Positions 1 to 18,616 of a stretch of 32,604 bases of DNA are shown here, piece by piece. The DNA comes from Clostridia bacterium (GTDB lineage Bacteria; Bacillota; Clostridia; Christensenellales; Aristaeellaceae), in contig JAGBDL010000110.1 of the NCBI GenBank assembly GCA_017937505.1, positions 1-32,604 on the forward strand, read 5' to 3'. The position numbers were made by a program, and so were the translations under genes. Under the pieces are notes generated by a model. It saw only the letters and a list, made by a program, of their open reading frames with translations. It made no database searches and had not been told where the DNA came from. How positions within the stretch are numbered: position 1 is the first letter of the stretch; each line of letters starts with the position of its first letter.

Positions 1-953
1 ACGACGGCGTATTCCCGCAGCATCGCCATGATGCACGCGCGGATTGTGCCGGGCGCCGCACCCGTCAGCGCAGTGAAAAACACGAGGAAAGCGCTCAGCA
101 CGGCAAAGCGCATCTTCCGCCCGACCGGCGCGCGTGAAAGCAGCGCGCTGACCACGCCCGCAATCATGCTCAGGTGCAGGCCGGAGACCGTCAGGATGTG
201 CGCCGTGCCCGTCAGGCGCATGGCTGCGGCAGTCTCGCTGTCCAGGCCGGACCTGTCGCCCAGCATCACGCCCCGGAACAGCGCCGCCTGCCCGCCAAAG
301 AGCGTCTCGATCTGCGCAGCGATCCCCGCGCGGAGCCGGCGCAGCCACTCGCCCGGCGAGAACCGACCCTCGCCCTGCGCCGTCCATCCCGGCAGCAGAT
401 AGCCGGAAAGCTCGTATCCGTCACAGATGGCCCGGATTCGCCAGTTCATGCCGCCCGGGTTGCGCGGCTCCTCCGGCGCAAAAAGCCGTCCCGTGCCCTG
501 CACGCGCTGGCCAACCAGGGGCTCGTCCGGCGGCATGGCGCTCTCCCCGTCCTCCCGCATCAGCGTGACGGCCACGGGCCGCGACGACGCCGCTTCGCCG
601 TCCACCGTCACGTCCGCCAGCATCACGCGGTACGGCCTGAGGATGCTCTTCACCGTGCCCTCGATGGACACGCCGGGCGCCGTCGGCAGATCGCGGCGGC
701 GCAGCGCGCTGCCCGCGCGCAGATTGCCCAGCAGCAGCATGCAGATCAGCCGGCAAAAAAGCGCGCGCTTTCGCCGCAGCAGGCGCACAGCGCCCAACGC
801 AAGCGAAAACGCGCAAAGGATCATCAGGTATTGGGGAGGAAGCATGGCGATTTCCGTCAGATAAATGCCCAGCAGATACGCGGCCGCAGCCGCCATCAGC
901 CTGCGGCGAACGGGCAGCAACACGGGCGGCTTCTGCCCGGCATGCTTCTTCAC
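1..953 (-). CDS. comEC: ComEC/Rec2-type DNA uptake channel, N-terminal part (cut by window edge)
   Basis: ComEC forms the inner-membrane channel that passes single-stranded DNA into the cell during natural transformation. The start is a GTG at 953-951 that overlaps the TGA stop of the MATE gene as GTGA. About 317 residues are in the window and the frame stays open to base 1. The N-terminus is a run of hydrophobic segments (for example LMAAAAAYLLGIYL and YLMILCAFSLALGAVRLL), followed by a DUF4131-like soluble stretch. The ComEC signature GTAHILTVSGLHLSM lies near the truncated end, followed by further membrane segments. It is the last visible gene of the glycosyltransferase operon, so it may be co-transcribed with glycan genes. 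The C-terminal metallo-beta-lactamase-like domain of long ComEC forms would lie outside the window and cannot be judged. Confidence 0.9.
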   Translation of the reverse strand, partial: MKKHAGQKPPVLLPVRRRLMAAAAAYLLGIYLTEIAMLPPQYLMILCAFSLALGAVRLLRRKRALFCRLICMLLLGNLRAGSALRRRDLPTAPGVSIEGTVKSILRPYRVMLADVTVDGEAASSRPVAVTLMREDGESAMPPDEPLVGQRVQGTGRLFAPEEPRNPGGMNWRIRAICDGYELSGYLLPGWTAQGEGRFSPGEWLRRLRAGIAAQIETLFGGQAALFRGVMLGDRSGLDSETAAAMRLTGTAHILTVSGLHLSMIAGVVSALLSRAPVGRKMRFAVLSAFLVFFTALTGAAPGTIRACIMAMLREYAV

Positions 954-2338
954 GGCTTTTGCACACTCCCCTGTCTGGCGATGCAGCGGTCAAGCCATCT
1001 GCCGCGCAGATAATAGACGATGAACATGGCGGAGGTGATGACCCAGGTGATCGGATAGCTCAGCAGCAGCACCGGCAGCTGATGCATCCTGGGCACGACA
1101 ACCGTCACCCAGAACACGCGCATCAGGCATACGCCGGTGAGCGTCATCAGCGTGGGCATCAGCGAATCGCCCGCGCCGCGCATCGCGCCGGAGAGGATTT
1201 CGATGCACAGATAGGTGATCCACGTCGGCACAATCAGGCGGATGATGGACATGCCCGTCTCCACGACGTGCGCATCGTCCGTGAACATGCCCAGCATCGG
1301 GCGGCCAACCGTCAGGATCAGCGCGCTCATGAACACCGTCACGCCGGCGGCCATGCCCAGACACACGCGCACGCTGCGGCGCATTCTGTCGTAGCGCCGC
1401 GCGCCGAAGTTCTGCCCCGCGAACGTGGTGATCGACACGCCGAACGCGCTGATCATCATCCAGTACAGGCCGTCGATCTTGCCGTACGCCGTCCAGGCCG
1501 CCATCACATCCGTGCCGAAGCCGTTGACGCTGGCCTGAATGATCATATTGGACAGCGAGTACATGACCGACTGCAATCCCGCCGGCAGGCCGATTTGCAC
1601 GATGCGCAGAAGCATGTCGCCATGGAAGCGAATCTTCCCAGCGTACAGGCGGTACACCGGCTGCGCATGGCACAGGCTGACGAGGATCAGCACCGCGCTG
1701 ACGACCTGGGAGAGCACCGTGGCAATCGCCGCGCCGCGCACGCCCATTTCAAGGCCCAGCACCAGGAGAATATCCAGCACGATGTTGGTCAGCGCCGCGC
1801 AGATGAGAAACAGCATCGGCCGCCGGGAATCGCCCACCGCGCGCAGCACGCCGGAGCCGATGTTGTACACCAGCTGCGGAATCATGCCCAGAAAATAGAT
1901 GTTCAGATACGGCAGCGCGTAGGCCATGACCTCCTGCGGCGTGCCCATCATTTCAAGGATGCCGCCGGCGCACAGCAGGCCCACCGCCGTCAGCAGCGCG
2001 CCGCTTGAAAGCGCCAGCGCGATCGTCGTGTGCACCGCGCGGGAGACGTCCTGCGCCTTTCGCGCGCCAAAGAGCTGCGCGATGATGACCGACGCGCCGG
2101 AGGCCAGGCCCACAAAAAAGCCGACCAGCAGATTGATGAGCGTGCCGGTCGAGCCGCCGACAGCCGCCAGCGCCTCCTTGCCGACAGCCTTGCCGACGAT
2201 GATCGCGTCCGCCGTGTTGTACAGCTGCTGAAAGAACGTGCCCAGCACGATCGGGAAAAAGAACAAAAGCAGCTGCTTCCAGATCACGCCCTCGGTGATG
2301 CCGTTGATATCCGGATGCTGCCTGATCAGTCTTCTCAT
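950..2338 (-). CDS. MATE family transporter
   Basis: This is an integral membrane antiporter of the MATE/NorM class in the MOP superfamily. Members export cationic drugs or metabolites using a sodium or proton gradient. I start it at ATG 2338-2336, preceded by GGAAAGGA at good spacing, giving 462 residues, the usual family length. A longer upstream frame has no similarity and overlaps the preceding gene. The N-terminus carries the typical sequence FFPIVLGTFFQQLYNTADAI, then VGLASGASVIIAQLFGAR. A second half-repeat contains LPAGLQSVMYSLSNMIIQASVNGFGTD in order, so about twelve membrane segments are expected. It follows the FrhB-like gene by 46 bp. In a glycan operon it occupies the place where a lipid-linked oligosaccharide flippase of the same superfamily would be expected. 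That role is inference, because the sequence looks like ordinary MATE rather than Wzx. Confidence 0.88.
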   Translation of the reverse strand: MRRLIRQHPDINGITEGVIWKQLLLFFFPIVLGTFFQQLYNTADAIIVGKAVGKEALAAVGGSTGTLINLLVGFFVGLASGASVIIAQLFGARKAQDVSRAVHTTIALALSSGALLTAVGLLCAGGILEMMGTPQEVMAYALPYLNIYFLGMIPQLVYNIGSGVLRAVGDSRRPMLFLICAALTNIVLDILLVLGLEMGVRGAAIATVLSQVVSAVLILVSLCHAQPVYRLYAGKIRFHGDMLLRIVQIGLPAGLQSVMYSLSNMIIQASVNGFGTDVMAAWTAYGKIDGLYWMMISAFGVSITTFAGQNFGARRYDRMRRSVRVCLGMAAGVTVFMSALILTVGRPMLGMFTDDAHVVETGMSIIRLIVPTWITYLCIEILSGAMRGAGDSLMPTLMTLTGVCLMRVFWVTVVVPRMHQLPVLLLSYPITWVITSAMFIVYYLRGRWLDRCIARQGSVQKP

Positions 2339-2384
2339 AAATCCTTTCCTTGTCCATGCGCCGCCATGCCCGGCGGCGCACGCT

Positions 2385-3578
2385 TCACCCTCTGCCCAGC
2401 AGGACGCGGACGCGCCGCAGCAGACCCTTGGGCAGATGCGCGATGCGCGCCGCGGCGCGCTCAAGCCGTCCCGGGCCGGCGAGCAGCTTCATCACATACG
2501 CGCTCTCGAAGCCCTTCCTCTTATATCGCCTGAAAAACGCCTCGCGGTTCTGATGTGGCTTCGCCGCGTGCGCGATGCTCGGGTTATCGCGCAGCAGCTT
2601 CTGCGTGCCCTCAATCGGGAAAACCGCAAGCTGCGACCGGCAGGCCTCGAATGCCTGCCTGCCCCGCTTCGTATTCAGGAACACGAGCGACATGCCCGTG
2701 TCGTCATCCGCATCGGGCGTAACCTCCTGTATGCCCCACAGATCCGCGACGGTGATGTCGGCCGGATGGTGCCCCTCGCGCATCGTCTCGCACTGCGTGC
2801 ACGACGGGCGCAGGTACAGATTCTGCAAAAAGCCGTAGAGGAACGGCTCCGTCGTCTGCTGGCCGGCATGCTCCGTGCCGTCCTCGAACGTCGCCACGGC
2901 GGAAAAGTCCTTCCAGCCCCTTCGCTTGTCGCGGAAGGTGTAGCGCACGACCCGCTGGCCATGCCTTTTCTCCAGCTCGCGCAGATACGAGGCAAACACG
3001 CCGGGCGACGGCACGCCGTGACAGACGAAATCGACCGTCAGCAGCAGGTCGCTCTCCTTCTTGCCCACGCGCGCCTTCAGGCCGCTGATCTGGCAGGGCG
3101 TGCCGGAAAAGAGCACCGGGATGCCGCGCTCCAGCAGCGCCGCTGCATGGGCGATCGCCTCCGACGCGTCGCTCTGCACATACTTGCTGCCGCGCATGCC
3201 GTCCAGCTCCGTCTCGTCAAACGCACCGATGTGCTCCACGCGCAGCGCCTCGTCAAACGCGGCGCCGAAGACCACGCCGCCCCGCTTCATCCATGCCCTC
3301 GCCAGCGCGGTGAACACGCCGCCGGAGGAGGACGCCCGGCGAAGCGCCTCGTCCCGGTTCTGCGCACCGAAGAGCTGCGGCCTGTTTTCTGCCTGCGTCC
3401 TGCCCGCCGGGCAGCGCTTCTCGCACAGGTCGCATTCCACGCAACGGGTGCCGTCGACAGCCGGATACAGGAAGCCCTCCTCGTCCGGCTGCATCGTGAT
3501 CGCGCCCCTGGGGCAGATGCTCATGCACGCGCCGCAGCCCGTGCACTCCGCCTTGCTTTTCCTGACCGTCTGTCTCAT
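2385..3578 (-). CDS. FrhB-like iron-sulfur flavoprotein (coenzyme F420 hydrogenase/dehydrogenase beta subunit family)
   Basis: This 397-residue protein begins with two 4Fe-4S ferredoxin motifs (Cys 12, 15, 18, 22 and Cys 46, 49, 52, 56). The FrhB N- and C-terminal domains follow, with family-type stretches such as SSSGGVFTALA, FSGTPCQISGLK, VDFVCHGVPSP and HPADITVADLWG. In methanogens FrhB binds F420 and flavin. In gut Clostridia and Bacteroidetes such genes recur in polysaccharide clusters beside pyruvyl transferases, where the substrate is unknown. It is 13 bp downstream of the pyruvyl transferase gene and is presumably co-translated. The start ATG at 3578 has a GGGAGAGAG site. I infer a redox step on a sugar or its pyruvyl/lipid carrier; nothing in the sequence fixes the substrate. 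Confidence 0.87.
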   Translation of the reverse strand: MRQTVRKSKAECTGCGACMSICPRGAITMQPDEEGFLYPAVDGTRCVECDLCEKRCPAGRTQAENRPQLFGAQNRDEALRRASSSGGVFTALARAWMKRGGVVFGAAFDEALRVEHIGAFDETELDGMRGSKYVQSDASEAIAHAAALLERGIPVLFSGTPCQISGLKARVGKKESDLLLTVDFVCHGVPSPGVFASYLRELEKRHGQRVVRYTFRDKRRGWKDFSAVATFEDGTEHAGQQTTEPFLYGFLQNLYLRPSCTQCETMREGHHPADITVADLWGIQEVTPDADDDTGMSLVFLNTKRGRQAFEACRSQLAVFPIEGTQKLLRDNPSIAHAAKPHQNREAFFRRYKRKGFESAYVMKLLAGPGRLERAAARIAHLPKGLLRRVRVLLGRG

Positions 3579-3591
3579 CGTCTCTCTCCCG

Positions 3592-4758
3592 TCACTTCGC
3601 CAGGTTCATCACTGCGGAGAGAATCTCCCCGCGCCCCGCCGTATAGTCCGGCATGCGCGCCGTGAGAAACGCCCGCTCCTCCTGAGCGCGCGCCCTCATC
3701 GCCTCGTACGCCGCAATCAGCTCCGCTTCGCCGCCCAGCTCCTGCACCGGGATCAGGTGCCCGGCCTCGTCGCCGAACAGATCGCGTGCGATGCCCCTGG
3801 CCTTGACCGAGTAGCCGATCACCAGCGTCGGCACGCCGGTCGAGTAGCCCGCCACCGACGCGTGCGTGCGCGCCGTCACCAGCGCCGCAAGGCGCGCGAT
3901 ATAGCCCTTGAGCTGCGGCGCGGTCAGCGCTTCGGCCTGCGGGAGCAGGAACACGCGAGGCTCGTTTTCAAACTGCGCCTTGATCCTGCCCAGCGCGTCC
4001 ATGTCGTTGTCGTGTGCCCAGAACACATGCGGGATCAGCGCCACGGCGCAGTCGCTCGTATTCAGGATGTGGCGCACCAGCCCCACAAACGCATGAAGCG
4101 TCCTGTCGCCGTCCTTCGCCCGGCTCAGAATCAGCGGGCTCACGTTGAGGCCCACCGTCTTTCCCTCGCGCCAGCCGTCCGGCAGCGGCAGCTCCTCGCG
4201 CACCATCGTGAACGCCGGATCGCACCAGCGAATCACCGGCAGGCCGGCTGCGCGCATCGCTTCCTCCGTGATCGACTCGCGCGCGACGATCAGGTCGTAG
4301 GCGCGCAGGTCGCAAAGCGTCTCGCCCTTGATGATGTCCGGCTCCACCGAGCAGCCCCACAGCACGAGCGGCTTGCCCGCGCGGCACAGGCGTCCGTTGA
4401 TCACCTGCAGATGCTCCTGGTGGCCGTAGCAGTAGGTATCCCCGCCGATGGACAGGCAGACGTCGCTTTTTTTGCCCAGATCGGTGACCGTGGCGTGCTT
4501 GCGGGCGACCTCCTGCTCGCGCGGGATGCCCAGGCGAAAGCCGATGGAATTGACGAGCCGACGCACGCTGTACGGCGCAATCTGGCTGCAAACAATCCTG
4601 TCCACGCGCTCAAGCCGCTGCGCACGATCCTCCTGCGGCGCGTCGGAGGCCAGAGAGACCGCCGCCAGGCCGTCAAAGAGCGCCGCCGTCGAGCGCACGA
4701 TCGCCTCGCAGCCGCGGTTTCCGCAGCCGCCGTGGTTGTAGAGCATGATCTGCTTCAT
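3592..4758 (-). CDS. polysaccharide pyruvyl transferase family protein (CsaB-like)
   Basis: The family transfers pyruvate from phosphoenolpyruvate to cell-surface sugars, creating negatively charged ketals. The best-known case is CsaB, which prepares wall polymers to bind SLH domains. I choose ATG 4758-4756 because it overlaps the upstream TGA as ATGA. An ATG 15 bases earlier would add five residues. The product is 388 residues. Visible family features are the N-terminal IMLYNHGGCGNRGCEAI, SIGGDTYCYG, LWGCSVEPD, the central DLIVARES, and the C-terminal VTARTHASVAGYSTGVPTLV with the characteristic R-x-H. The TGA at 3592-3594 is followed closely by the FrhB-like gene. The pairing with glycosyltransferases and an FrhB-like protein supports a surface-glycan role; the acceptor sugar is unknown. 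Confidence 0.87.
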   Translation of the reverse strand: MKQIMLYNHGGCGNRGCEAIVRSTAALFDGLAAVSLASDAPQEDRAQRLERVDRIVCSQIAPYSVRRLVNSIGFRLGIPREQEVARKHATVTDLGKKSDVCLSIGGDTYCYGHQEHLQVINGRLCRAGKPLVLWGCSVEPDIIKGETLCDLRAYDLIVARESITEEAMRAAGLPVIRWCDPAFTMVREELPLPDGWREGKTVGLNVSPLILSRAKDGDRTLHAFVGLVRHILNTSDCAVALIPHVFWAHDNDMDALGRIKAQFENEPRVFLLPQAEALTAPQLKGYIARLAALVTARTHASVAGYSTGVPTLVIGYSVKARGIARDLFGDEAGHLIPVQELGGEAELIAAYEAMRARAQEERAFLTARMPDYTAGRGEILSAVMNLAK

Positions 4759-5738
4759 CGCCTGATTCCCCATTTCCTTCCCGTCAGCTTCTCCCGGACG
4801 CGCATGAGCGTGTAAAACGCCGGGAATCCGCCCTGCCTGACCAGCCGGTACAGCCGCTTATCCTGCGGCAAAAGCCTGTCCTCCCGCACGCCGTCCATCG
4901 CAAGCGGGCGCACCCGCCTGTCAAACGTCTTCATGCACGCGCGGATGCCGCGCTCCTTCTCGTCGATCCAGACGCAGCTCTGCAAAAAGTCCCGGAAATA
5001 CCGCTCCTTCACGCCCTGCGCCAGCAGAATCGCGCTCATGCTGCGCAGCATGGGCTGATGCGCCTCGCTGTGGCCGCGGATACCCGCCATCGCCGACTGG
5101 CTGTGCACGCGGTAGACATAGGTGTAATCCGGCAGATGGGCAACCTTGTCCGCGCGCAGGAAGAGCTGCAGATTGAGCAGCGCGTCCTCGCCGATGCGCA
5201 CGCCCTCGTCAAGCCGCAGGCCGTCAAACAGCTCGCGCGCGTAAAGCTTGTTCCAGATGTTGTTGTAGATGCGGTGCATGTGAATGATCTCCCGGACGAT
5301 CTGTGCGCTTTCCTGCGCCACCGGCGGGAGATGAACCGGCATGCGCTGTCCCTTTTCCATGTCAAAGAGCGTATGATTGGCCGAGACGATCTGCGCTCCG
5401 GTGCGCGCCGCGCACTGAAACAGCGTGCGCAGGCTGTTTTCCTCCAGCGCGTCGTCCGCGTCCACGAACGCGATATACCGGCCCGTCGCCAGCGCGAGAC
5501 CCCGGTTGCGTGCGGCGGACACCCCGCCGTTTTCCGTATGGATCACCCGCGCCCGCGGCTCGACGCGCGCGAAATCATCCAGCATCGCCCCCGTCGCGTC
5601 GGTCGAGCCGTCGTCGATGAGGATCATCTGAAGCTCCGGCTCCCTCTGCGCCTTGAGGCTCTCCAGACACACGCTCAGATAGCGTCCGGCGTTATAGCAC
5701 GGCACGATGACGCTGATATCGGCCTGTGATTCACTCAT
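4755..5738 (-). CDS. family 2 glycosyltransferase (fourth of four paralogs)
   Basis: This is an inverting GT-A glycosyltransferase of 327 residues, expected to add a sugar from a nucleotide donor to a lipid-linked or surface glycan on the cytoplasmic membrane face. The nucleotide-binding fold is clear: ISVIVPCYNAGRYL (8-21), DDGSTDAT (42-49), ENGGVSAARNRGL (69-81) and the DADD metal-binding motif (93-96). The C-terminal half has the NIWNKLY and IGEDALLNLQLF segments shared with its three neighbours. The start is ATG 5738, with AGAAGGAG six bases upstream; a longer open frame upstream overlaps the previous gene and has no homology. It is separated by 20 bp from the paralog before it and overlaps the pyruvyl transferase gene by four bases. 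Confidence 0.9.
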   Translation of the reverse strand: MSESQADISVIVPCYNAGRYLSVCLESLKAQREPELQMILIDDGSTDATGAMLDDFARVEPRARVIHTENGGVSAARNRGLALATGRYIAFVDADDALEENSLRTLFQCAARTGAQIVSANHTLFDMEKGQRMPVHLPPVAQESAQIVREIIHMHRIYNNIWNKLYARELFDGLRLDEGVRIGEDALLNLQLFLRADKVAHLPDYTYVYRVHSQSAMAGIRGHSEAHQPMLRSMSAILLAQGVKERYFRDFLQSCVWIDEKERGIRACMKTFDRRVRPLAMDGVREDRLLPQDKRLYRLVRQGGFPAFYTLMRVREKLTGRKWGIRR

Positions 5739-5758
5739 GTGTACTCCTTCTTCCCGGC

Positions 5759-6691
5759 TTACGGCAGCAAAAAGCTCAATGCAGGCAGCGCACGAAGCGC
5801 CAGGTAGTACAGCTTCTGCTTGGCGGGCAGGCTGCCAAAGGCCACGTCCTTGGTGATGCGCGCCACCATGGCGCGGGAAAGCGAGCACGCCGCCTTTGCC
5901 CGTCCCCGGTCCGCCCGCAGCGTGCGGATGTAGAGATCGATGTGCGCGCGGAACAGCGGCGTCGCCAGATCGTGCGCGTCAATGAAGCGACCGATGCCCT
6001 CGATCATCGGCACGCTGCGCGCGTAAAAGTCCTTGTGGGCCCGCGTCATCGCGGAATCCCCGCCGAATTCGTAGATGTAGACGGTCTCCCCGCTCATGCG
6101 CCAGGCGCGCGCGGCGGCAAACGCGTCGAGGTTGAACAGCACGTCCTCGCCCACCTTCACGCCCTCGGGCGCGCGCACGCCGTGCGCGCGAATCAGCTGC
6201 GTGCGGTACAGCCGGGCGCACATGCTGTTGAGCGCACTGTCCCCGCGCAGAAGGCTCTCCAGCACGGTCTGTAGATCGCCGTCCGCGCAGGCGTGGTACT
6301 CCTCCCGGCCGCCCTCGTCGCGAAAGCGCATCACATACGCGCCGCAGGCGATGTCCGTTTCCTCATCAGTCAGCGACAGCAGGTGCGTCAGCGCGTGCGG
6401 CAGAAGGTGGTCGTCCGCGTCCACAAACGACAGCCACGTTCCCCGCGCCGCGTCGATGCCCGCGTTGCGCGCGGCGGACACGCCCCCGTTCTCCTGATGG
6501 ATGACGCGCATGCGCGGCTCGTCCTGCGCCAGACGGGTCAGAACGGCCAGGGTGTCGTCCCTTGAGCCGTCGTCCACGGCGATCAATTCCCAGCTTTCCT
6601 CCGTCTGCGCCTGGATGCTGCGCACGGTGCGCGCAAGCGTCCGGCCGCTTTGGTAGCACGGCATGACGATGGACACAAGCGGCCTGTTCAT
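5759..6691 (-). CDS. family 2 glycosyltransferase (third of four paralogs)
   Basis: A GT2 enzyme of 310 residues. Motifs seen are VSIVMPCYQSGRTL (6-19), DDGSRDDT (40-47), ENGGVSAARNAGI (67-79) and DADD (91-94). After the catalytic domain comes the SMCARLYRTQLI and VGEDVLFNLDAF signature shared across the tandem set. Start ATG 6691 overlaps the stop of the preceding paralog (ATGA). The stop TAA at 5761-5759 is one of the few non-TGA stops in this operon. Donor and acceptor sugars cannot be read from sequence. Confidence 0.9.
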   Translation of the reverse strand: MNRPLVSIVMPCYQSGRTLARTVRSIQAQTEESWELIAVDDGSRDDTLAVLTRLAQDEPRMRVIHQENGGVSAARNAGIDAARGTWLSFVDADDHLLPHALTHLLSLTDEETDIACGAYVMRFRDEGGREEYHACADGDLQTVLESLLRGDSALNSMCARLYRTQLIRAHGVRAPEGVKVGEDVLFNLDAFAAARAWRMSGETVYIYEFGGDSAMTRAHKDFYARSVPMIEGIGRFIDAHDLATPLFRAHIDLYIRTLRADRGRAKAACSLSRAMVARITKDVAFGSLPAKQKLYYLALRALPALSFLLP

Positions 6692-7710
6692 TGCGGCATC
6701 TCCTTCTTTTTGCGCAAGGCAAACGCGGCCTCGCCGAGCTTGCGGCGCAGCACCTGCACGGGGTAGATCAGCGGATAGACGCGCGGATACGCGCCGCTGC
6801 GGCACAGCCGCCAAAGCACGCGCGCGCTTGGAGTCAGCCGGCCTTCGTCAAGATCATCAAGCGGCAGGAGCGGCAGAACGTCCGCGTCAAACCGGCGAAT
6901 CACGCCGGCCACGCCGCCGTCCTTGTACAGCCGCAGCGCCGCGCTGTCCACGTACGCGGCAAAGTAGGCTTCCATCTGCCCGCGTCTGAGGAGCATGCCC
7001 CGCATCGTGAGCAACCAAAGCCTGTGGCGCTCCATCTCGCCCGCGGCCTGCGCGTGCATCGCGGAGGCGCCGTGCATGCGGTAGCGGTACGCCACGCGGT
7101 TCACATACGCGATGGCGCGCCCGCAGAGCACGGCCTCCAGATTGAACAGCGCGTCCTCCGCGATCTTCACGCCCGCCTGGAGCCGCAGGCCCTCGCGCTC
7201 GATCAGGGCGCGCCGGTGCAGCTTGCAGCACATGATGTTGAGCACACAGTCGCCCTCGATCAGCCGCAGCGCCGCCGCGCGCCGCTGGGCCTCGCCCCGC
7301 CTGTCCATCCAGCGCGTCTGCGGGATGACGGTTTCCAGGGGGCCGTTTTCATCAAACGTCTCGTGCGGGCAGACCACCATGTCCACATTTTCATCCGTGC
7401 CGGAGAGCATCGTCTGGAGCGCGTCCGGAGGCAGCAGGTCGTCGCTGTCCACGAATGTGATCCACTCGCCCCGCGCATGCTCAAGCCCCAGGTTGCGCGC
7501 AGCGGCCACGCCGCGGTTTTCCTGCGCCAGCACACGCACGCGAGTGTCCCTTTCGGCATACGCCTGCGCCACGGCAAGCGTGCCGTCCACCGATCCATCG
7601 TCAATCAGGATCGCTTCAAAGTCCTCCATCGTCTGCGCAAGCACGGAATCCATGCATGCGCCCAGATAGGCCTCGCTGTTGTAGCACGGGATGATGATGC
7701 TGACCTTCAC
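6688..7710 (-). CDS. family 2 glycosyltransferase (second of four paralogs)
   Basis: A GT2 enzyme of 340 residues. It starts with GTG at 7710-7708, which overlaps the stop of the preceding gene as GTGA, so translation is probably coupled. Motifs are VSIIIPCYNSEAYL (3-16), DDGSVDGT (37-44), ENRGVAAARNLGL (64-76) and DSDD (88-91), where serine replaces alanine of the neighbours' DADD. The tail has NIMCCKLHRRALI and IAEDALFNLEAV, the same architecture as the other three paralogs. It ends with a basic stretch (RKKKE), common in peripheral membrane glycosyltransferases. Confidence 0.9.
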   Translation of the reverse strand: MKVSIIIPCYNSEAYLGACMDSVLAQTMEDFEAILIDDGSVDGTLAVAQAYAERDTRVRVLAQENRGVAAARNLGLEHARGEWITFVDSDDLLPPDALQTMLSGTDENVDMVVCPHETFDENGPLETVIPQTRWMDRRGEAQRRAAALRLIEGDCVLNIMCCKLHRRALIEREGLRLQAGVKIAEDALFNLEAVLCGRAIAYVNRVAYRYRMHGASAMHAQAAGEMERHRLWLLTMRGMLLRRGQMEAYFAAYVDSAALRLYKDGGVAGVIRRFDADVLPLLPLDDLDEGRLTPSARVLWRLCRSGAYPRVYPLIYPVQVLRRKLGEAAFALRKKKEMPQ

Positions 7711-8750
7711 GGCGTATCCTCCCGTCCCTGCACAAGGCTGGCCGCGCCCTTCACGTCGCCGCGCAGCCAGCGCAGGGCAAACACGCGCGCGCGAATCTGC
7801 GTGCGCACACCCTTGTGCGTCTTGAGCGTGTACATGAGCAGCGGCATGGGCGAGATCAGCGCACGCAGCAGGCTTCTCATCGTCCCGTTGTCCCGGTATT
7901 CCTCCATCGCGCGGTGCACATCATCAAGCTCCGGGTCCAGCCGGATGCCCTTGGTGATCAGCTTGTCGTAGCAAAGCACCGGCAGCACGTCTTTGATCTC
8001 GTCAAACCGGCCGCATGTTTTCGCATATTCCCACAGCCGCACGGACAGCGTCATCAGCCGCCGGGCCAGCCGGGGCTTTTTCATGCCCATCAGCGAATCG
8101 CCGCGCTGGACATAGTACACATACGGCGTATCCAGCGCCGCAATCGTGTGCGTATGCATCAGATACTGCGCGGAAAACAGCGTATCCTCCGCGAAAATCT
8201 CGTCATTCGGCGCAAAGCGCAGGCCGTTTTCCTCGATCACGCTGCGGCGGTAGAGCTTGCTCCACGCCTCCTGACCGTGCCGATACGGCATCCAGTACCG
8301 GTAGAAATAGTTGGCGAGGCCGAGCCGGTCCACGTCGATCGTCCCGCTCTCAAAGCGCAGGTACGGCCCCTGCTCCTGTCCGTCCACGACCAGCGCGTAG
8401 TTGTAGAGCACCTGCTGCGCGCCGGTTTCATCCGCCGCGCGTACGGTTTCCTCCAGCCACCGCGGCGCAACATAATCGTCCGCATCAACGAACGCGATGT
8501 ACTCGCCCCGCGCCGCATCAAGCCCCGCGTTGCGCGCGGAGGACAGGCCGCCGTTCTCCTTGTGGATCTGGCGGATGCGGCCGTCGCGCTGCGCGTACGC
8601 CTGCATGATCGCCGGACAGCCGTCCTTCGTGCCGTCGTCAACCAGGATCAGCTCGAAATCGGCAAACGTCTGCGCCAGAATGCTGTCGAGGCATTTCGGC
8701 AGATACGCCTCCACCTGATAGACCGGCACAATCACGCTCACACGGCACAT
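7707..8750 (-). CDS. family 2 glycosyltransferase (first of four paralogs, first gene of the operon)
   Basis: A GT2 enzyme of 347 residues. Motifs are VSVIVPVYQVEAYL (4-17), DDGTKDG (38-44), ENGGLSSARNAGL (65-77) and DADD (89-92). EAWSKLYRRSVI and FAEDTLFSAQYL follow in the C-terminal half. The start ATG 8750 has a GGGAAG site and lies about 40 bases downstream of a good promoter (8794-8823), making this the first gene of an eight-gene unit that runs to comEC. It likely adds an early sugar of a surface glycan, but gene order does not prove reaction order. Confidence 0.9.
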   Translation of the reverse strand: MCRVSVIVPVYQVEAYLPKCLDSILAQTFADFELILVDDGTKDGCPAIMQAYAQRDGRIRQIHKENGGLSSARNAGLDAARGEYIAFVDADDYVAPRWLEETVRAADETGAQQVLYNYALVVDGQEQGPYLRFESGTIDVDRLGLANYFYRYWMPYRHGQEAWSKLYRRSVIEENGLRFAPNDEIFAEDTLFSAQYLMHTHTIAALDTPYVYYVQRGDSLMGMKKPRLARRLMTLSVRLWEYAKTCGRFDEIKDVLPVLCYDKLITKGIRLDPELDDVHRAMEEYRDNGTMRSLLRALISPMPLLMYTLKTHKGVRTQIRARVFALRWLRGDVKGAASLVQGREDTP

Positions 8751-9244: not shown

Positions 9245-10891
9245 TTATGCAAAGAATTTCGCTTCCAGCATGGCGCAGAGGGTGTGGCAAATCGGCACAT
9301 GCATCTCCTGCACTTCAGCCGTACAGTGTCCGGGTACAACGATTGCAGAATCGCAAAGCTGCGCCATGCGTCCGCCCGTTCCGCCCGTGAGACAGATCGC
9401 GCGCATGCCCAGCGCCTTGCCGGCGGCGATTGCAAGCAACACATCCTTCGCGTTTCCGCTGGTGCCGATGCCCAGGAGCACATCGCCCTTGCGTCCATAG
9501 GCAACGGTCTGCTGCGCCATGGAAAGATACGCGCCGCAGTCGTTCTCAGCAGCCGCTGAAACGGCTGCCTGTCGTGTCAGGGCAATCGCAGGCAGGCCCT
9601 GCTGCATGGCCTTGGCGCTGCCGGGCAGTATCGCGTCCATATTCCGGCTGAGCGCTTCAAGCCGGGCGCCATGAAACCGTCGCGGCAGGGAAGATCCCTT
9701 CACCAGTTCTCTGGCAATGCGCTCGCCGTCCGCGCAGCTGCCTTCCTCGCCGCAGATCAGCAGCTTTCCGCCGTCCTGATAGCAGTCCCGCATGATCAGA
9801 TACGTATCCATGATCTGTTCTCTGCATCCTTCAAGCTGCGGATACTGCTCAAACAGGCGATTGTAGTGCGCCATCACCTCGGGCTTCCGCTCGTCTCCGT
9901 GCGTCAGCGGGTCAATTCCCAGGTTATACAAAGCCACCATGATGCTGGCCAAATCCCCGATCGCCTCGCCTGTCTGCGCAGGCACAACCCGAAGCCCCTC
10001 CAGCGAGAAGGGAATGGCTTCCGCCTTCAGCTCGGCTTCCATAGCGGGGCGCAGCAGTTCTTCACAGCGCACAAATATGCTGCCGATCGTCACAACCTCC
10101 GGATTGAAGGCATCCACCAGCATGGCCACCGTCCTGCCCAGCATCCTGCCGATATGATTCCAGAAGCGGATCGCGTCTTCATCCCCACGGCGGGCACAGT
10201 CCGCCATCACCTTGACGTCCAGTTCTTCAATGCTGTTTACATCATTCATCCAGGCAGGGATTTGCCCCCTGCTCATCATGTCCTTCGTCCATGCCATGGC
10301 CTGATGGCGGATCGCCTCGCCGCTGGTGTATCCCTCCACGGAGCCAGCCTTGCCAAACCCCACAGGCCCATCATCCGTCAGGCGAAGGTGGCCAATCTCG
10401 CCGCCCATATCCGTATGACCGCAAAGCAGCCTGCCTTCAACAATCATGCCGCCTCCCATGCCGGTTCCCATCGTCAGGAAGATCATGTTGGAGGTGTTGC
10501 GTCCGGCGCCCAGCTTCCATTCAACCAGGGCACAGGCGTTGGCGTCATTCTGCAGAAAAGCCTGAATGCCATACTTTTCTTCCAGCATGCGGGTCAGCGG
10601 AATGTTCACCCAGCCGCGAAGATGGGGCGGGCACAGCACAATGCCGTGGCGGGCATCGAGCGGGCCGCCGCAGCTGATGCCAATGGCATCAATGTCCCGC
10701 GGGGTCAGCCGATGGGCCGCCAGAATCGCATCAATGCCCTCGCAGAGCTTGCCCCAGGCATAGTCAAATCCCTTGTCAACACATGTGGCAAAACGGATTT
10801 TATCCGTGATCACGATGCCGTGGTTCACCTCGGCCAATAACACGCAGCACTTTGTTCCGCCGATATCCAGGCCAATGTATTTCTTTTCCAT
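9245..10891 (-). CDS. fused ROK-family sugar kinase and GmhA-like SIS isomerase
   Basis: One uninterrupted 548-residue frame joins two enzymes. Residues 1-325 are a ROK sugar kinase, with the phosphate-binding GLDIGGTK (7-14), GISCGGPLD (71-79), catalytic Asp116 in QNDANAC, GTGMGGGMI (142-150) and GEIGH (164-168). Residues about 345-548 are a SIS domain close to sedoheptulose-7-phosphate isomerase, with GGKLLICGEEGS (374-385), KGDVLLGIGTSGN (468-480), LTGGTGG (501-507) and EVQEMHVPICHTLC (526-539). The expected products are a sugar phosphate made by the first half and isomerised by the second. Two departures from the families are visible. The usual CxCGxxGC zinc cluster of ROK proteins is replaced by GFGKAGS (178-184), and the SIS position usually held by a metal-binding histidine is Arg391. 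The start ATG 10891 has GGGAGGAA upstream. It is the only intact gene of its locus. Confidence 0.88.
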   Translation of the reverse strand: MEKKYIGLDIGGTKCCVLLAEVNHGIVITDKIRFATCVDKGFDYAWGKLCEGIDAILAAHRLTPRDIDAIGISCGGPLDARHGIVLCPPHLRGWVNIPLTRMLEEKYGIQAFLQNDANACALVEWKLGAGRNTSNMIFLTMGTGMGGGMIVEGRLLCGHTDMGGEIGHLRLTDDGPVGFGKAGSVEGYTSGEAIRHQAMAWTKDMMSRGQIPAWMNDVNSIEELDVKVMADCARRGDEDAIRFWNHIGRMLGRTVAMLVDAFNPEVVTIGSIFVRCEELLRPAMEAELKAEAIPFSLEGLRVVPAQTGEAIGDLASIMVALYNLGIDPLTHGDERKPEVMAHYNRLFEQYPQLEGCREQIMDTYLIMRDCYQDGGKLLICGEEGSCADGERIARELVKGSSLPRRFHGARLEALSRNMDAILPGSAKAMQQGLPAIALTRQAAVSAAAENDCGAYLSMAQQTVAYGRKGDVLLGIGTSGNAKDVLLAIAAGKALGMRAICLTGGTGGRMAQLCDSAIVVPGHCTAEVQEMHVPICHTLCAMLEAKFFA

Positions 10892-10950
10892 AGAGGATTC
10901 CTCCCATTCTGCAATCATCCGCATCCATGAATGCCGTTTCCCCAAGCCGA

Positions 10951-12510: not shown

Positions 12511-12852
12511 GTCTGTGAGCGTTGCCTGTAAGCCGAGTTCTGTAATCGGCGGTCATCTATCTAGACCCGTTGTTGCCAACGGGTTCAAGCGAAATCCTGA
12601 GAGCTCGACGGGCCGTCTCAAACGCTCTTTCGTTTCTTGCTGCGAGTGGGGTTTACATCGCGGACGAGTCGCCAGGCCGCGGGTGAGCTCTTACCTCACC
12701 TTTCCACCCTTACACGCCTTGCGGCGTGCGGTATCTCTCTGTTGCACTTTCCCTGGGGTCGCCCCCGCCGGGCGTTACCCGGCACTCTGCCCTATGCAGC
12801 TCGGACTTTCCTCACACCTTCCGGCGCGCGGCCGCCCGGCAGCCTCACAAAC
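12511..12852 (-). ncRNA. rnpB: RNase P RNA (bacterial type A)
   Basis: This is the catalytic RNA that removes 5' leaders from precursor tRNAs. On the minus strand the conserved GAGGAAAGTCCGAGCT (12813-12798) is followed by GGGAAAGTGCAACAGAGAG and GGTGGAAAGGTGAGGTAAGAGCTCACC (read in two parts). The 3' conserved region TAGATAGATGACCGCC and ACAGAACTCGGCTTA comes after that. The 5' GTTTGTGAG and 3' CTCACAGAC ends pair to form helix P1, which sets the ends within a few bases. A perfect consensus promoter and a downstream hairpin terminator frame it. The helix layout looks like the ancestral type A, but I did not fold it. Confidence 0.96.
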
Positions 12853-13388: not shown

Positions 13389-14096
13389 TTATTTCACCAG
13401 GATGATGCGGCCGCAGTTCTCGCACTCCACGTACGGCTGGCCGCTGCGCACCTTGTCCTTGTCCGCAGCGGAAAGCTGCATGTTGCAGCCGCCGCAGCGG
13501 TCGTCATGCAGACGCGTGATGGGCATCGCCGCATGGCGCTTAATCGACTTGTACTTCTCAATCAGCGCCGGATCGATGCTCTCCGCCTCCTTGGCCACTT
13601 TCTTCTTGAGCTCGTCGAGCTTGACGGAGGCCGTCTTGAACTCCTCGTCGTAGATGACCTTGATGCGGTCAAACTCTGCGCGGGCCTTGGCGGCGCGCAC
13701 GCGCACCTCGCGCTGCTGGCGGTCGCGCGCCTCGCTGTCCTTGCGCATCTTGGCCAGCTCCGACTCATAGCGGGAGATGGTGGTCAGCAGCTTCTGGATG
13801 GACGCGATCTGCTTCTTCGCCTCCTCGAGATCCTGCGGACGGTTCGCCTCAAAGTTCGCCGTCGCCTCGGCCACAGAGCCGTTCAGGCGCGTGATCTCAT
13901 CCGCCAGCGCTTCCATACGGTCGCTCATGATCTCCACGTCCGACTCAATCTTCTTGAGGACGCTCTGCTGCTCCAGCAGGAATTCGCGATGCTTGAGCAG
14001 CTCCTTGCGGTTGCTGCTTGCGCGCATCTCCTTCTCATACTGATCCAGCTCCATGTCAACCTGCTGGTACTGCCACAAAAGTTCGTACTGATGCAA
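13389..14096 (-). CDS. coiled-coil protein with C4-type zinc ribbon
   Basis: A 235-residue protein. Most of it (about residues 15-180) is a charged helical coiled coil, and it ends in a zinc ribbon with CGGC and CENC pairs (DRCGGCNMQLSA, then VECENCGRIILVK). The family (Pfam zf-RING_7 / C4-type zinc ribbon) is widespread beside nif3 and trmK genes. It is suspected to bind nucleic acid, but its role is unproven. Translation begins with TTG at 14096-14094, supported by GGAGGG at proper spacing; no ATG or GTG in frame fits. It follows trmK-nif3 by 19 bp. Confidence 0.87.
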   Translation of the reverse strand: MHQYELLWQYQQVDMELDQYEKEMRASSNRKELLKHREFLLEQQSVLKKIESDVEIMSDRMEALADEITRLNGSVAEATANFEANRPQDLEEAKKQIASIQKLLTTISRYESELAKMRKDSEARDRQQREVRVRAAKARAEFDRIKVIYDEEFKTASVKLDELKKKVAKEAESIDPALIEKYKSIKRHAAMPITRLHDDRCGGCNMQLSAADKDKVRSGQPYVECENCGRIILVK

Positions 14097-14115: not shown

Positions 14116-15579
14116 TCAACGCCCGAAGGGATTTCCCTTGGAGCAAAAAACCGTTACATTATATTTTAGCGCATCACAGGCATTTTGTAAAGCATTGGCC
14201 ATCACTTCACAGGCAGGATTTTCCGTTTCAAAGTGTCCCGCCTCGATCACGCACATGCCGCTATCCATCGCCTCCAGCGCGACGTGATGCTTGATCTCGC
14301 CGGTGATGAAGCAGTCCGCGCCCAGCGCAGCGGCCTCCGGAAAGAGACTTCCGCCCGCGCCGGAGCAGCAGCCTAGCGTTCTGACCGGCGTATTCGCGCC
14401 GCCGTATGCCCGCACAACGGCATGCAGCTTTCTCTGCGCCCGCGCGCACAGATCGCCAAAGGTCGTGCCTGCCTCCACGTCGCCCACGCGAATGCAGCCC
14501 TCGCCGCGCACATTTTGGGCGCCCATCTGTGCCAGCAGCGTGTCGTTCACGCCGCCCGGCGCGCTGTCAAAATTCGTGTGCGCGGCGATGTGCGCGATGC
14601 CGTTTTCCGCCAGCGCGAGCAGCAGCCTGCCCTCGCGGTCAGCGTCCGTCATGCGCCTGCGCGCGTCCATCATGATTGGGTGATGCGTGACGATCGCCTG
14701 CGCGCCCAGCGCCTTTGCTTCTTCGATCACGCCGTCCGTCAGATCCAGCGCCGTCAGCACGCGCGTGACGCCTCTGTCTGCGTATCCCATAAGCAGGCCG
14801 ACGTTGTCCCAATCCTCTGCCAGCTCATATGGCGCGATTTCGCCGACCAGCCGTTCCAGCTCCTTCACCGTGCATGCGTTCACATTCATCGCCTCCGCCA
14901 TCCATTCAAGTTCCCGGCTGCTGACTGCCCTGCGGGCACGCGCCTTGTCGGAACAAAGCGCCGCCGTCTGCTCCATCTCGCGCACGCGCACGCTGCGCTG
15001 CCAGGCAAAGTATGCCCGCTGCCCCTCGTCCTTCATGCCGCAGACCGCCGTGCCCAGCAGCGCCTCGCGCTCATCCAGACGGCGTATCTCGTCCGCTCTG
15101 GCCAGCATCGTCACATAGCGCCGTCCTGCCGCGCGGGAGAAGACCTCTCTTTCCACGGCAAAGCCCATCTCGGCCAGCCCGCTGCGCAGCAGCGGCAGAT
15201 CGACATTCGCCTGCAGAATCAGCGATGCGCTGCCGATCCGCTCCCGGCCCTCGCGGAGAATCCGGAGGATTGTCTCCGCGCCCATGCCCGCGATCACGAT
15301 GGCCTGCACCGGCCGGTCAATGCCCGCCAGCCCGTCAGCCTGCACGACAAGCGCACGATTCTGCAGCCCGGACGTCGCCAGCAGGCGCTTCGCTTTCTCA
15401 AGCGATGGGCCGCTCACGTCGCTGGCAATCATGAAAAGCCGGCTGCACCGCTCGAGCAGATGCGCCGTCAGCTGCCCGTGATCGCAGCCGATATCCGCCG
15501 CGCAGGGGCTTTCGCAGCCCGCCACGGCCTCCAGCACCAGCTCCGCCATCGCGCCGAGCCGCTCGTCCAGCTGAACCAT
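14116..15579 (-). CDS. fusion of tRNA adenine-22 N1-methyltransferase (TrmK) and Nif3-like metal protein
   Basis: This 487-residue frame carries two proteins that are usually separate neighbours (yqfN and yqfO in Bacillus). Residues 1-228 are TrmK, which methylates A22 of tRNAs using S-adenosylmethionine: AADIGCDHGQL (27-37), SDVSGPSLEKAK (53-64), VIAGMGAETI (95-104) and a helical C-terminal part. Residues 231-487 are a short Nif3/YbgI-type protein with a two-metal site: WDNVGLLMG (257-265), VTHHP (297-301), HTNFD (334-338) and AGHFETE (447-453). The Nif3 half lacks the extra inserted domain of YqfO. At the joint Met231 (ATG at 14889) is preceded by GGAGG only two bases away, so a separate internal start is conceivable though poorly spaced. 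Start ATG 15579 has GGAGGGGG upstream. Confidence 0.88.
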   Translation of the reverse strand: MVQLDERLGAMAELVLEAVAGCESPCAADIGCDHGQLTAHLLERCSRLFMIASDVSGPSLEKAKRLLATSGLQNRALVVQADGLAGIDRPVQAIVIAGMGAETILRILREGRERIGSASLILQANVDLPLLRSGLAEMGFAVEREVFSRAAGRRYVTMLARADEIRRLDEREALLGTAVCGMKDEGQRAYFAWQRSVRVREMEQTAALCSDKARARRAVSSRELEWMAEAMNVNACTVKELERLVGEIAPYELAEDWDNVGLLMGYADRGVTRVLTALDLTDGVIEEAKALGAQAIVTHHPIMMDARRRMTDADREGRLLLALAENGIAHIAAHTNFDSAPGGVNDTLLAQMGAQNVRGEGCIRVGDVEAGTTFGDLCARAQRKLHAVVRAYGGANTPVRTLGCCSGAGGSLFPEAAALGADCFITGEIKHHVALEAMDSGMCVIEAGHFETENPACEVMANALQNACDALKYNVTVFCSKGNPFGR

Positions 15580-15757: not shown

Positions 15758-16855
15758 TTATTCGAGATAATCCTTGAGCTTCTTGCTGCGGCTCGGGTGG
15801 CGCAGCTTGCGCAGCGCCTTCGCCTCGATCTGGCGGATGCGCTCGCGCGTGACGTTGAACTGCTGTCCGACCTCTTCAAGCGTCCTCTGGCGGCCGTCCT
15901 CCAGGCCGAAGCGCAGGGACAGCACCTTCTTTTCGCGCGGGGTCAGGGTGTCCAGCACGCTCATGAGCTGCTCCTTCATCAGCGTGAAGGACGCAGCCTC
16001 TGCGGGCGGCGGCGCGTCGTCATCCTGGATGAAGTCGCCCAGGTGGGAGTCCTCCTCCTCGCCGATCGGCGTCTCCAGGGAGACCGGCTCCTGCGCGATC
16101 TTGATGATCTCGCGCACCTTCTCCACCGAGATGCCCATCGCCTCGGCGATCTCCTCCGGCTGCGGCTCACGGCCCTTCTCCTGCAGGAGCTGACGGCTGA
16201 CGCGGATCAGCTTGTTGATCGTCTCGACCATGTGCACCGGAATGCGGATCGTGCGCGCCTGATCGGCGATCGCGCGGGTGATCGACTGACGGATCCACCA
16301 GGTGGCATACGTCGAAAATTTAAAGCCCTTCTGATAGTCGAACTTTTCCACCGCCTTGATCAGGCCCAGGTTGCCCTCCTGAATCAGATCCAGGAACAGC
16401 ATGCCGCGGCCGACATAGCGCTTGGCGATGGAGACGACCAGACGCAGGTTCGCCTCGGCCAGCTTCTTCTTTGCCGCCTCGGCGTCCGGGCCGCCCTCGA
16501 GCATCTTCTTGGCGATCTCGATCTCCTCGTCCGCGGTGAGCAGCGGCACCTTGCCGATCTCCTTGAGATACATGCGCACAGGGTCGTCGATGCTGATGCC
16601 CTCCGGCACGGACAGGTCAAGCTCCGGCTCCGCAGCTTCCTGCGCGCTGGCGACCGCCTCGTCCTCGGAGCTGCTCACGATGCTGACGCCCTCGGCCTCC
16701 AGCGTTTCAAAGACCGCGTCAATCGCATCCGCATCGATATCCAGCTCGCTGAGCTTGTTCATTACCTCCTGATAAGAGATCGTCTTCTTCTCGTTGCGCG
16801 CGAGATCGAGGATCTCCTTGACCTTCTGCTGCGCCTGTTCACGTGTCAGTGCCAT
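15758..16855 (-). CDS. rpoD: primary RNA polymerase sigma factor (sigma-70/SigA)
   Basis: The housekeeping sigma factor directs RNA polymerase to -10/-35 promoters like those seen in this window. The 365 residues include a short region 1.1 (1-80), region 1.2 at [16 protein letters not shown], and region 2 with the hallmark [38 protein letters not shown] and [13 protein letters not shown]. Region 3 follows, then region 4 with [15 protein letters not shown] and the helix-turn-helix [22 protein letters not shown]. The length matches Bacillus SigA and lacks the large non-conserved insert of proteobacterial RpoD. Start ATG 16855 lies six bases after the dnaG stop. The dnaG-rpoD order is the classical macromolecular synthesis operon without rpsU. 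Confidence 0.98.
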
Positions 16856-16861
16856 AAGAAG

Positions 16862-18616
16862 TCATTCCTTTCTTCCGGCCGTCTGTCTTTCCTTCGTCAG
16901 TTCCTGTATCTTCAAAAGCGTTCTGCGCTTGTCTTCGCCCGTCTGATGGCCGAGCTCCTTCTGAAGCGCCGCGATCTTCTCCTCGATGCGCTTCCTGTGC
17001 AGGATGCGCAGACAGTCGCCTGCCATGCGCAGCTGCCCCTCCTCGCCCGCGCCGCTGTCCTTTTCAAGCAGCCGTGCCGCGCGCGCGCGTTCGTTTTCGT
17101 CTGCAATCTCCTCAAGAATCGCGCCCGGCGTCATGCCGTCGATGAGCTTTTGCGCCATCGCGCGCCGCTCCGCGGAGATAAAGTCGTCCGCCGTCACCGT
17201 GCCCGGCTCAATGCGCTTTTCTGCCAGCAGCAGAAGGAGCTGGCGCTCCGCGGCGGCCGTCTCGGTGTCCACGCCCTCGTTCATTTCCTCCAGCGGCCGG
17301 GCCGCATGGCGGTACGTCCTCTGCTGCTGCTGGCTGAGCAGCTCCGTGCGGCCGATCTGCGCCAGCAGCACGTCGCGCGGAAAGCCTGTGGCAACCATGA
17401 GCTCCTTCACATAGTTTTCAAGCTCAACCGGCTCCTTGACCTTCGCCAGATATTTGGCGCAGGCGATGGCGTACGCGGTGCGTCCCTCCTGGGTGGAGAG
17501 GTCGTGATGCTGCGCCTCCTGCCTCATGCGGTAGGTCGTCGCATCCATCGGCGCCAGACTGTCCAGCGCCTGCAGTCCGCGCTGACGGATGTATTCGTCC
17601 GGATCCAGTCCGTCGGGAAACACGAGTACGCGCGCCTTCACGTTTTCCTCGTCAAAGATCTCCAGCGCGCGCAGGATCGCCTTCTGGCCCGCGGCGTCGC
17701 CGTCGTAGGATACCCAGATTTCCGGCGCGTACCGCTTGAGCAGCCTCGCCTGCTCGATCGTCAGCGCCGTGCCCAGCGTCGCGCAGACGCCCGGCACGCC
17801 CGCCTGCGTCAGCGCGATCACGTCCATATAGCCCTCGACCAGGATCACGCGCTTCAGGCCCCGCTGCTTTTTGAGCAGGTTGGCCGCAAACACGCCCAGC
17901 CGCTTGTTGAACACCGGCGTATCGCCTGTGTTGAGGTATTTCGGTTTGATATCACCCAGCGCGCGCCCGCCAAAGCCCAGCACGCGCCCCTGCGCGTCGA
18001 TGATCGGGAAAATCGCGCGCTGGCGGAACATGTCGTAAACCCGCCCGTCGCGGCGGACCGAGATGCCCGCGCGCACGAGCTCGTCGTCCGTAAAGCCCAG
18101 CGCGCGCATGGCCTGCGTCGCGCCGTCCGACCTTGCGGGCGTGGAGCCCAGGCCGAACATGCGGATCGTCTGATCGTCCAGCCCGCGGCCATACAGATAC
18201 GAGAGAATCTGCGCGTTTTCCTTCTTCCAGAGCTCACTGTGGAAAAAGCGCGCGCACTGTTTGTTCGCCTCGACAAGCCGCTCCTTCTCGCTGCGGCTGG
18301 CCGCATCCTCGCGGCCGGCGATCATCTCCGGCAGCTCCATGTGGTTCTGCTCGGCCAGCAGCTTCACCGCGTCGGCAAACTCCAGATGCTCGATCTCCAT
18401 CACAAAGGTGATGGCGCTGCCGCCCGCGTGGCAGCCGAAGCAGTAGTACATCTGGCGCTGCGGATTGACGGAAAAGGACGCCGTCTTCTCCCCGTGGAAG
18501 GGGCACAGCCCCCAGTAGCGCCCGCCCTTGGGGGTCAGGTGCACATACCGGGAGACCACCGAAACGATGTCGGAGCGTTCGCGCAGCTCGTCAAGCCACG
18601 CCTGCGGAAACCTCAA
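16862..18616 (-). CDS. dnaG: DNA primase
   Basis: DnaG lays down RNA primers at the replication fork together with the DnaB helicase. The 584-residue protein has an N-terminal CHC2 zinc-binding domain (Cys38, His41, Cys59, Cys62; CPFHGEKTASFSV and YYCFGCHAGG). A catalytic core follows, with EKERLVEANK and AQGRVLGFGGRALGD, then a Toprim fold with ILVEGYMDVIAL and SYDGDAAGQKA, and a helicase-interaction C-terminus. I use TTG at 18616-18614 as start, because the conserved N-terminus (RFPQAWLDELRERSDIV) begins there and no ATG is available. GAGAGGG and GAAGGA lie just upstream. Confidence 0.96.
   Translation of the reverse strand: MRFPQAWLDELRERSDIVSVVSRYVHLTPKGGRYWGLCPFHGEKTASFSVNPQRQMYYCFGCHAGGSAITFVMEIEHLEFADAVKLLAEQNHMELPEMIAGREDAASRSEKERLVEANKQCARFFHSELWKKENAQILSYLYGRGLDDQTIRMFGLGSTPARSDGATQAMRALGFTDDELVRAGISVRRDGRVYDMFRQRAIFPIIDAQGRVLGFGGRALGDIKPKYLNTGDTPVFNKRLGVFAANLLKKQRGLKRVILVEGYMDVIALTQAGVPGVCATLGTALTIEQARLLKRYAPEIWVSYDGDAAGQKAILRALEIFDEENVKARVLVFPDGLDPDEYIRQRGLQALDSLAPMDATTYRMRQEAQHHDLSTQEGRTAYAIACAKYLAKVKEPVELENYVKELMVATGFPRDVLLAQIGRTELLSQQQQRTYRHAARPLEEMNEGVDTETAAAERQLLLLLAEKRIEPGTVTADDFISAERRAMAQKLIDGMTPGAILEEIADENERARAARLLEKDSGAGEEGQLRMAGDCLRILHRKRIEEKIAALQKELGHQTGEDKRRTLLKIQELTKERQTAGRKE

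Follow-up and report, generated by a model that had tools for sequence, protein, structure and literature searches.

The window, that is, the whole stretch of 32,604 nucleotides that was analysed, comes from a gut bacterium and carries a gene that encodes TrmK and a Nif3 protein in a single polypeptide (Table 1). The earlier note had described one continuous frame of 487 codons, and this was borne out: on the minus strand TrmK and then NIF3 are read without a stop, while the plus-strand reading of 14116-15579, in the frame shown, contains three stops. A missed stop codon near 14890, which the note had named as possible evidence against a fusion, is not present, and the frame is uninterrupted. 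The same stop-free frame recurs in the genome assemblies of 21 members of the genus, that of the window included; therefore, a sequencing or assembly slip is excluded. As the note also supposed, trmK and nif3 are neighbours in the relatives inspected, mostly in different frames. Searches of the window's genome with the NIF3 family and with the whole protein gave one match each and uncovered no second trmK or nif3, so that the fused gene holds the sole copies found. Its ATG at 15579 follows a strong Shine-Dalgarno site (duplex energy -12.1).

Table 1 Features of the fused gene and its neighbours, in positions of the window.
Feature	Positions	Strand	Basis or remarks
trmK-nif3 fused gene	14116..15579	-	487 aa, calculated 52.2 kDa; ATG 15579-15577, TGA 14118-14116
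TrmK half, residues 1-228 (second arm helix continues to 231)	14896..15579	-	Pfam, alignment, model
GGAGG, internal Shine-Dalgarno-like site within codons Ala228-Ala230	14892..14896	-	Sequence, conservation
ATG (Met231), candidate start of the earlier note, 2 nt from GGAGG and outside the conserved start column	14887..14889	-	Sequence
GTG (Val233), proposed start of free Nif3 (255 aa, about 26.9 kDa)	14881..14883	-	Conservation
DUF34/NIF3 half, residues 233-487	14119..14883	-	Pfam; without PII-like insert
C4 zinc-ribbon protein gene, next downstream	13389..14096	-	PF02591
Primary sigma factor (rpoD), upstream neighbour	15758..16855	-	Sigma-70 regions 1.1 to 4
DNA primase DnaG, upstream neighbour	16862..18616	-	dnaG

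The family of the downstream neighbour, PF02591, is given as the hallmark of COG1579, and dnaG, rpoD and zinc-ribbon genes are all among the commonest operon partners of COG0327 (Table 3 of PMC8469502). Downstream of the zinc-ribbon gene lies a bacterial class A RNase P RNA (12512-12847, minus strand), with a full-length match of 263 bits.

The two halves of the fused protein

The N-terminal half belongs to the TrmK family (PF04816, residues 28-197, 95.9 bits against a cut-off of 27). In an alignment with the Staphylococcus aureus chain, Asp29 and Asp33, both invariant across ten fused proteins, are the counterparts of SaTrmK Asp22 and Asp26, which are strictly conserved and of which Asp26 is the proposed general base (PMC9190014). 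An AlphaFold2 monomer model built from 18 sequences (mean pLDDT 92.1, pTM 0.83) contains the C-terminal arm as two helices, residues 185-206 and 211-231, the second of which is directly followed by Nif3. Partial loss of this arm is reported to abolish the activity of B. subtilis TrmK (PMC9190014). The fused TrmK is predicted to have m1A22 activity. The GMGG motif of TrmK has become GMGA in 18 of the 21 genus fusions and the QPN motif QAN in 19 of them, with QSN in G159 and QPN in G172; among the genus fusions (L027-L047), G172 (L047) retains both GMGG and QPN. These changes possibly reflect a shift of substrate or activity, or they may be harmless, as S. aureus TrmK itself has QSN.

Nif3 proteins are spread over all domains of life, and to our knowledge no function has been agreed for them. 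The C-terminal half is a DUF34/NIF3 protein by Pfam (PF01784, residues 237-481, 238 bits against a cut-off of 23.4) and by the NCBIfam equivalog TIGR00486 (167.4 against 130.55). His299, His300, Asp338, His449 and Glu453 form the two-metal pattern HH, D, H, E and are invariant in ten fused proteins. We take these residues to be the metal ligands, after YbgI. By Foldseek, each half matches solved structures of its own family, the TrmK half with a TMt of 0.79 against 6q56. Stand-alone TrmK (6Q56, 7O4M) and NIF3 (2NYD, 1NMO) agree with the two halves in sequence and fold, but are separate proteins. Known Nif3 proteins are described as hexamers (PMC1779786).

A conserved site at the junction

The earlier note remarked in passing that an ATG at 14889 with a close GGAGG could yield free Nif3. 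The GGAGG is indeed there (14896-14892), but only 2 nt separate the ATG from it; it is the GTG at 14883-14881, two codons further on and at 8 nt, that is conserved as a start. In the usual range of spacing, the duplex energy is -5.5 for the ATG and -9.5 for the GTG, and the ATG of the relatives sits in the column of this GTG. With the start so shifted by two codons, the remark on free Nif3 is the stronger part of the note. The conserved Shine-Dalgarno site and start codon expected of in-frame internal initiation were found in 20 of the 21 genus fusions, in each of which the distance from GGAGG to an in-frame ATG or GTG downstream is exactly 8 nt; the start column reads ATG in 17 genes, GTG in three (that of the window included) and GAA in one. 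In this last genome (G135) the GGAGG is also gone, and a GGGAGG stands 8 nt before an ATG six codons upstream, a displaced site that may be due to chance. The alignment of all 21 fusions runs without gaps from the GGAGG codons on into Nif3. In relatives with separate genes, Nif3 begins at or near the junction site.

The GGAGG is encoded by codons for x-Glu-(Ala/Val/Glu). Column 239, whose codon supplies the first G, is occupied by A, S, T, G, E or Q and underwent ten residue changes on the tree with zero third-base changes. This is unique among the 206 columns with at least five residue changes, the next best being one with a single third-base change. The third base is G in 21 of 21 genes, which holds for no other of the 155 columns with at least four kinds of residue. 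Seven 5-mers occupy a constant position in 20 or more of the 21 genes; GGAGG is among them, and the other six start at nearly invariant residues. By itself, the GAG of the junction Glu column is unexceptional: of the ten Glu columns, a second one also shows GAG in 20 of 21 genes.

GGAGG occurs 2-13 times per fused gene. Elsewhere in these genes, more than three codons from the site on either side, a GGAGG 5-9 nt upstream was found for 6 of 287 ATG, 8 of 424 GTG and 2 of 52 TTG codons that lie in frame; of the start-like codons within three codons of the site, none of 11 had one. When synonymous codons were shuffled within each gene (2000 shuffles), the arrangement appeared on average in 7.0 of the 21 genes and at most in 13, against 20 observed; the 21 genes are related by descent, so that these figures overstate the significance, and the count on the tree is the fairer one, but the site had been noticed before it was tested. 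The RNA also appears open at this place. In 60-nt windows, folding at the start column was on average weaker than in 94% of the other windows of the gene (above one half in 21 of 21 genes). For 17 of the 21 genes there were sufficient GC-matched windows for a comparison, and here it was weaker than in 87% of those (above one half in 17 of 17), with the reservation that the genes share ancestry and the significance is not to be taken at face value.

Distribution and history of the fusion

The earlier note proposed a survey of the fusion across Clostridia. This was carried out, and it showed a fusion that is kept in the genus and rare elsewhere. Of 29 genus genomes searched, 25 gave a match, and in 21 of these 25 one stop-free frame crosses both halves; the four that gave none are 75-84% complete. 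G167, one of the 21, could be traced to residue 462 only, because of undetermined bases and a frame break near the end. Separate trmK and nif3 genes were found in four of the 25 (G152, G156, G157 and G168). The fusions of the genus range down to 46% protein identity to that of the window. Named relatives with the fusion (L073-L077) are uncultured Clostridia or Clostridiales, two of them from sheep rectum and one an isolate called "Lapin". In G032 (L012:2754-5270), the fused frame has 839 codons between stops, about 350 of them ahead of TrmK, and the TrmK start chosen is nearly without a Shine-Dalgarno site. No Pfam domain was found upstream of TrmK in this frame, and a three-domain fusion was rejected.

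Within the family, NIF3 was found in 124 of 150 genomes. Six of these belong to the genus and all six are fused, while none of the other 118 is; five frames of at least 430 aa among the latter (G129, G062, G058, G070 and G014) had the genes in separate frames. In this count, frames shorter than 430 aa were assumed to lack room for both halves, and a small number of matches lay at contig ends. For the order and class samples, the count was made with the NIF3 family itself and with every match listed. In the order sample, NIF3 was found in 118 of 151 genomes and was fused in that of the window and in G186, G281 and G265 (3 of 117 others); five other long frames (G279, G198, G248, G194 and G200) hold separate genes. 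In the class sample, NIF3 was found in 124 of 148 genomes, with frames above 430 aa only in the window's genome and in G486 (1 of 123 others fused). In a 297-genome order sample, G032, of the same genus, G445, G389 and G319 were also fused among the matches listed. Candidates in G112, G409, G335, G360, G219, G924, G470, G226, G258, G026, G310 and G182 were rejected, as were the five long frames of the order sample, because the genes lie in different frames. The same applies to the halves of distant hits that look full-length (Falkowella, Ezakiella and others; L078-L081, L084, L085).

With a profile of ten fused proteins, matches at E 1e-60 or better were obtained in 178 of the 391 genomes searched in the class and in 43 of the 398 in the phylum, and among the matches listed only the window's own spans both halves without a stop. 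This search showed just the Nif3 part of the fused G486; therefore, it undercounts fusions. Among the matches listed, 14 class genomes match over the full length only through stops, and 8 of the 391 do so in one frame with a single stop. Since trmK and nif3 are common neighbours and may lie one stop apart, fusion is often one mutation away.

In the genomes covered, five lineages carry the fusion: the genus, g120, which is another genus of the order (G265, G281, G319 and G389), G445, G186, which also has a second NIF3 gene, and G486, which belongs to another family of the class and has a 533-aa TrmK-NIF3 frame (L118:1302-2900, plus strand). Three of the four lineages outside the genus have a strong internal site. 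A strong Shine-Dalgarno-like site and a start-like codon stand at the Nif3 start in G445 (-9.3) and G186 (-10.4), and in G486 the Nif3 start has a TTG, two codons ahead of an ATG, that AAGGAGG precedes by 8 nt (-11.7). None of the four g120 fusions (L059-L062) has an internal Shine-Dalgarno signal (-3.3 to +1.7), and they have VAH where the genus has QAN. The g120 fusion is a separate one of different design, and its lack of the signal indicates that free Nif3 is not required in every fusion. An internal start thus appears to be common in such fusions without being a rule, and in the single, young-looking fusions it may be a leftover.

An IQ-TREE tree was built from 43 rows, namely 21 fused and four separate ones of the genus and 18 separate ones of the family; six fused rows of other families and L008 (G149, whose best trmK hit is on the other strand) were omitted. 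The four separate-gene genomes form one clade (100/99) nested within the fused ones, followed outward by G172 (100/98) and then by G096 with G158 (100/98). Forcing the 21 fused rows together was rejected (p-AU 0.001), this group having been defined by the trait after a FastTree result had been seen. In these four, the gap from the end of trmK to the Nif3 start is no more than a few dozen bases, and in G157 the two genes overlap as ATGA. The nested genomes have probably lost the covalent link again; the tree alone cannot tell gain from loss, and by parsimony one fusion and one re-split take two steps and three fusions take three.

Proposed products and alternative readings

We consider it likely that the fusion kept the ribosome-binding site and start of nif3 inside the frame and that the gene makes both a 52-kDa TrmK-Nif3 and a 27-kDa free Nif3. 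An ancestor of the genus would have joined the operon neighbours trmK and nif3 in one frame with the nif3 ribosome-binding site and start codon retained, and one message would then give both proteins, the short form by translation from the internal start. In the long form, the methyltransferase, C-terminal arm included, would pass without a break into the metal-binding half, Nif3. Six-membered rings are the form of the solved Nif3 proteins, so that long and short products could come together in mixed rings with fewer than six TrmK arms each. More tentatively, linked and free Nif3 from a selected start may set the number of TrmK arms per ring, and the start may later have been the hinge of the re-split.

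The earlier note regarded the fusion as a clue that Nif3 and TrmK work in the same process. The fusion itself was confirmed and is maintained across the genus, but the idea of a shared process gains little from it: these genes join readily and the join was probably reversed once, and it is therefore weak evidence for Nif3 acting on tRNA. A joint role of Nif3 and TrmK on tRNA, with Nif3 as, for instance, a metal chaperone or scaffold, would be compatible with two products of the gene, and we hold it to be somewhat doubtful. The recurrence of the fusion in five lineages speaks for it, as does the place of COG2384 as sixth among the operon partners of COG0327, where the first row is COG0327 itself (PMC8469502, Table 3). 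However, adjacent genes fuse easily, the link was probably abandoned in four genomes, dnaG, rpoD and the zinc-ribbon gene are neighbours just as well, and the passages on TrmK that were consulted (PMC9190014 among them) mention no metal need. It is likewise rather unlikely that the link is a neutral accident without a role, selection maintaining the two activities only; this would agree with the rarity of the fusion outside the genus and its probable reversal, but not with a gap-free junction and a fused frame in 21 of 25 matching genomes of the genus.

A single 52-kDa product, with GGAGG as a ribosome-pausing signal at the domain boundary or as a relic, seems improbable. The gap-free junction of the genus fusions does suggest that the fused form itself is maintained, and the g120 fusions do without the signal. 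However, pausing needs neither an ATG or GTG at a fixed 8 nt nor an open RNA structure, both of which are conserved, and the third-base constancy persists down to the most distant fusions of the genus, which is long for a relic. Least probable is that three separate fusions took place within the genus with no re-split, which would cost only one parsimony step more but is at odds with the identical junction spacing and motif of the 21 fusions.

If both forms are made as we propose, the cells would need Nif3 both joined to TrmK and free. The gene would also be a compact test system, in which one start codon switches free Nif3 off and leaves the fusion untouched. It is a warning that a gene fusion need not mean that one polypeptide is always made, and probably an instance in which a fusion has come apart again at an internal start that was preserved.

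The fusion class COG2384-COG0327 (TrmK-DUF34) is already in print (Reed et al. 2021, section 3.8; PMC8469502), with the same two families joined in bacteria and the same operon partners (Table 3). Sections 3.7 and 3.8 of that paper do not touch on an internal start, on the spread of the fusion through a genus or on a clade with the genes split again. A literature search with most subscription journals outside its scope turned up papers on internal starts or pausing in general, and no title or opening of an abstract that treats internal initiation within the TrmK-Nif3 fusion. The proposed internal start, the conservation of its site and the separate-gene clade nested among the fused ones are new relative to the literature searched.

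Internal starts are described for other genes. The long and short forms of ClpB come from one gene by an in-frame internal GTG (Val149) that gives a shorter protein, and an ATG six codons upstream was first called the start before the GTG proved to be it (PMC11005335). There, however, one protein is shortened, whereas in the present case the second of two once-separate, now fused genes retains its start. The cas8b gene of Haloferax volcanii gives a large protein and, from an internal methionine in the same frame, the short Cas11b, both of them parts of the same interference system (PMC11899642). That case concerns a CRISPR system and was shown by experiment, whereas two products of the TrmK-Nif3 gene are predicted from sequence.

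The window contains another apparent fusion, a ROK domain (residues 23-327) and a SIS domain (442-540) in one 566-aa frame at 9245-10945 on the minus strand. A gene run of the surface-polysaccharide type lies at 950-8750 on the same strand and encodes a MatE transporter, an FrhB-like iron-sulphur protein, a pyruvyl transferase and three family-2 glycosyltransferases.
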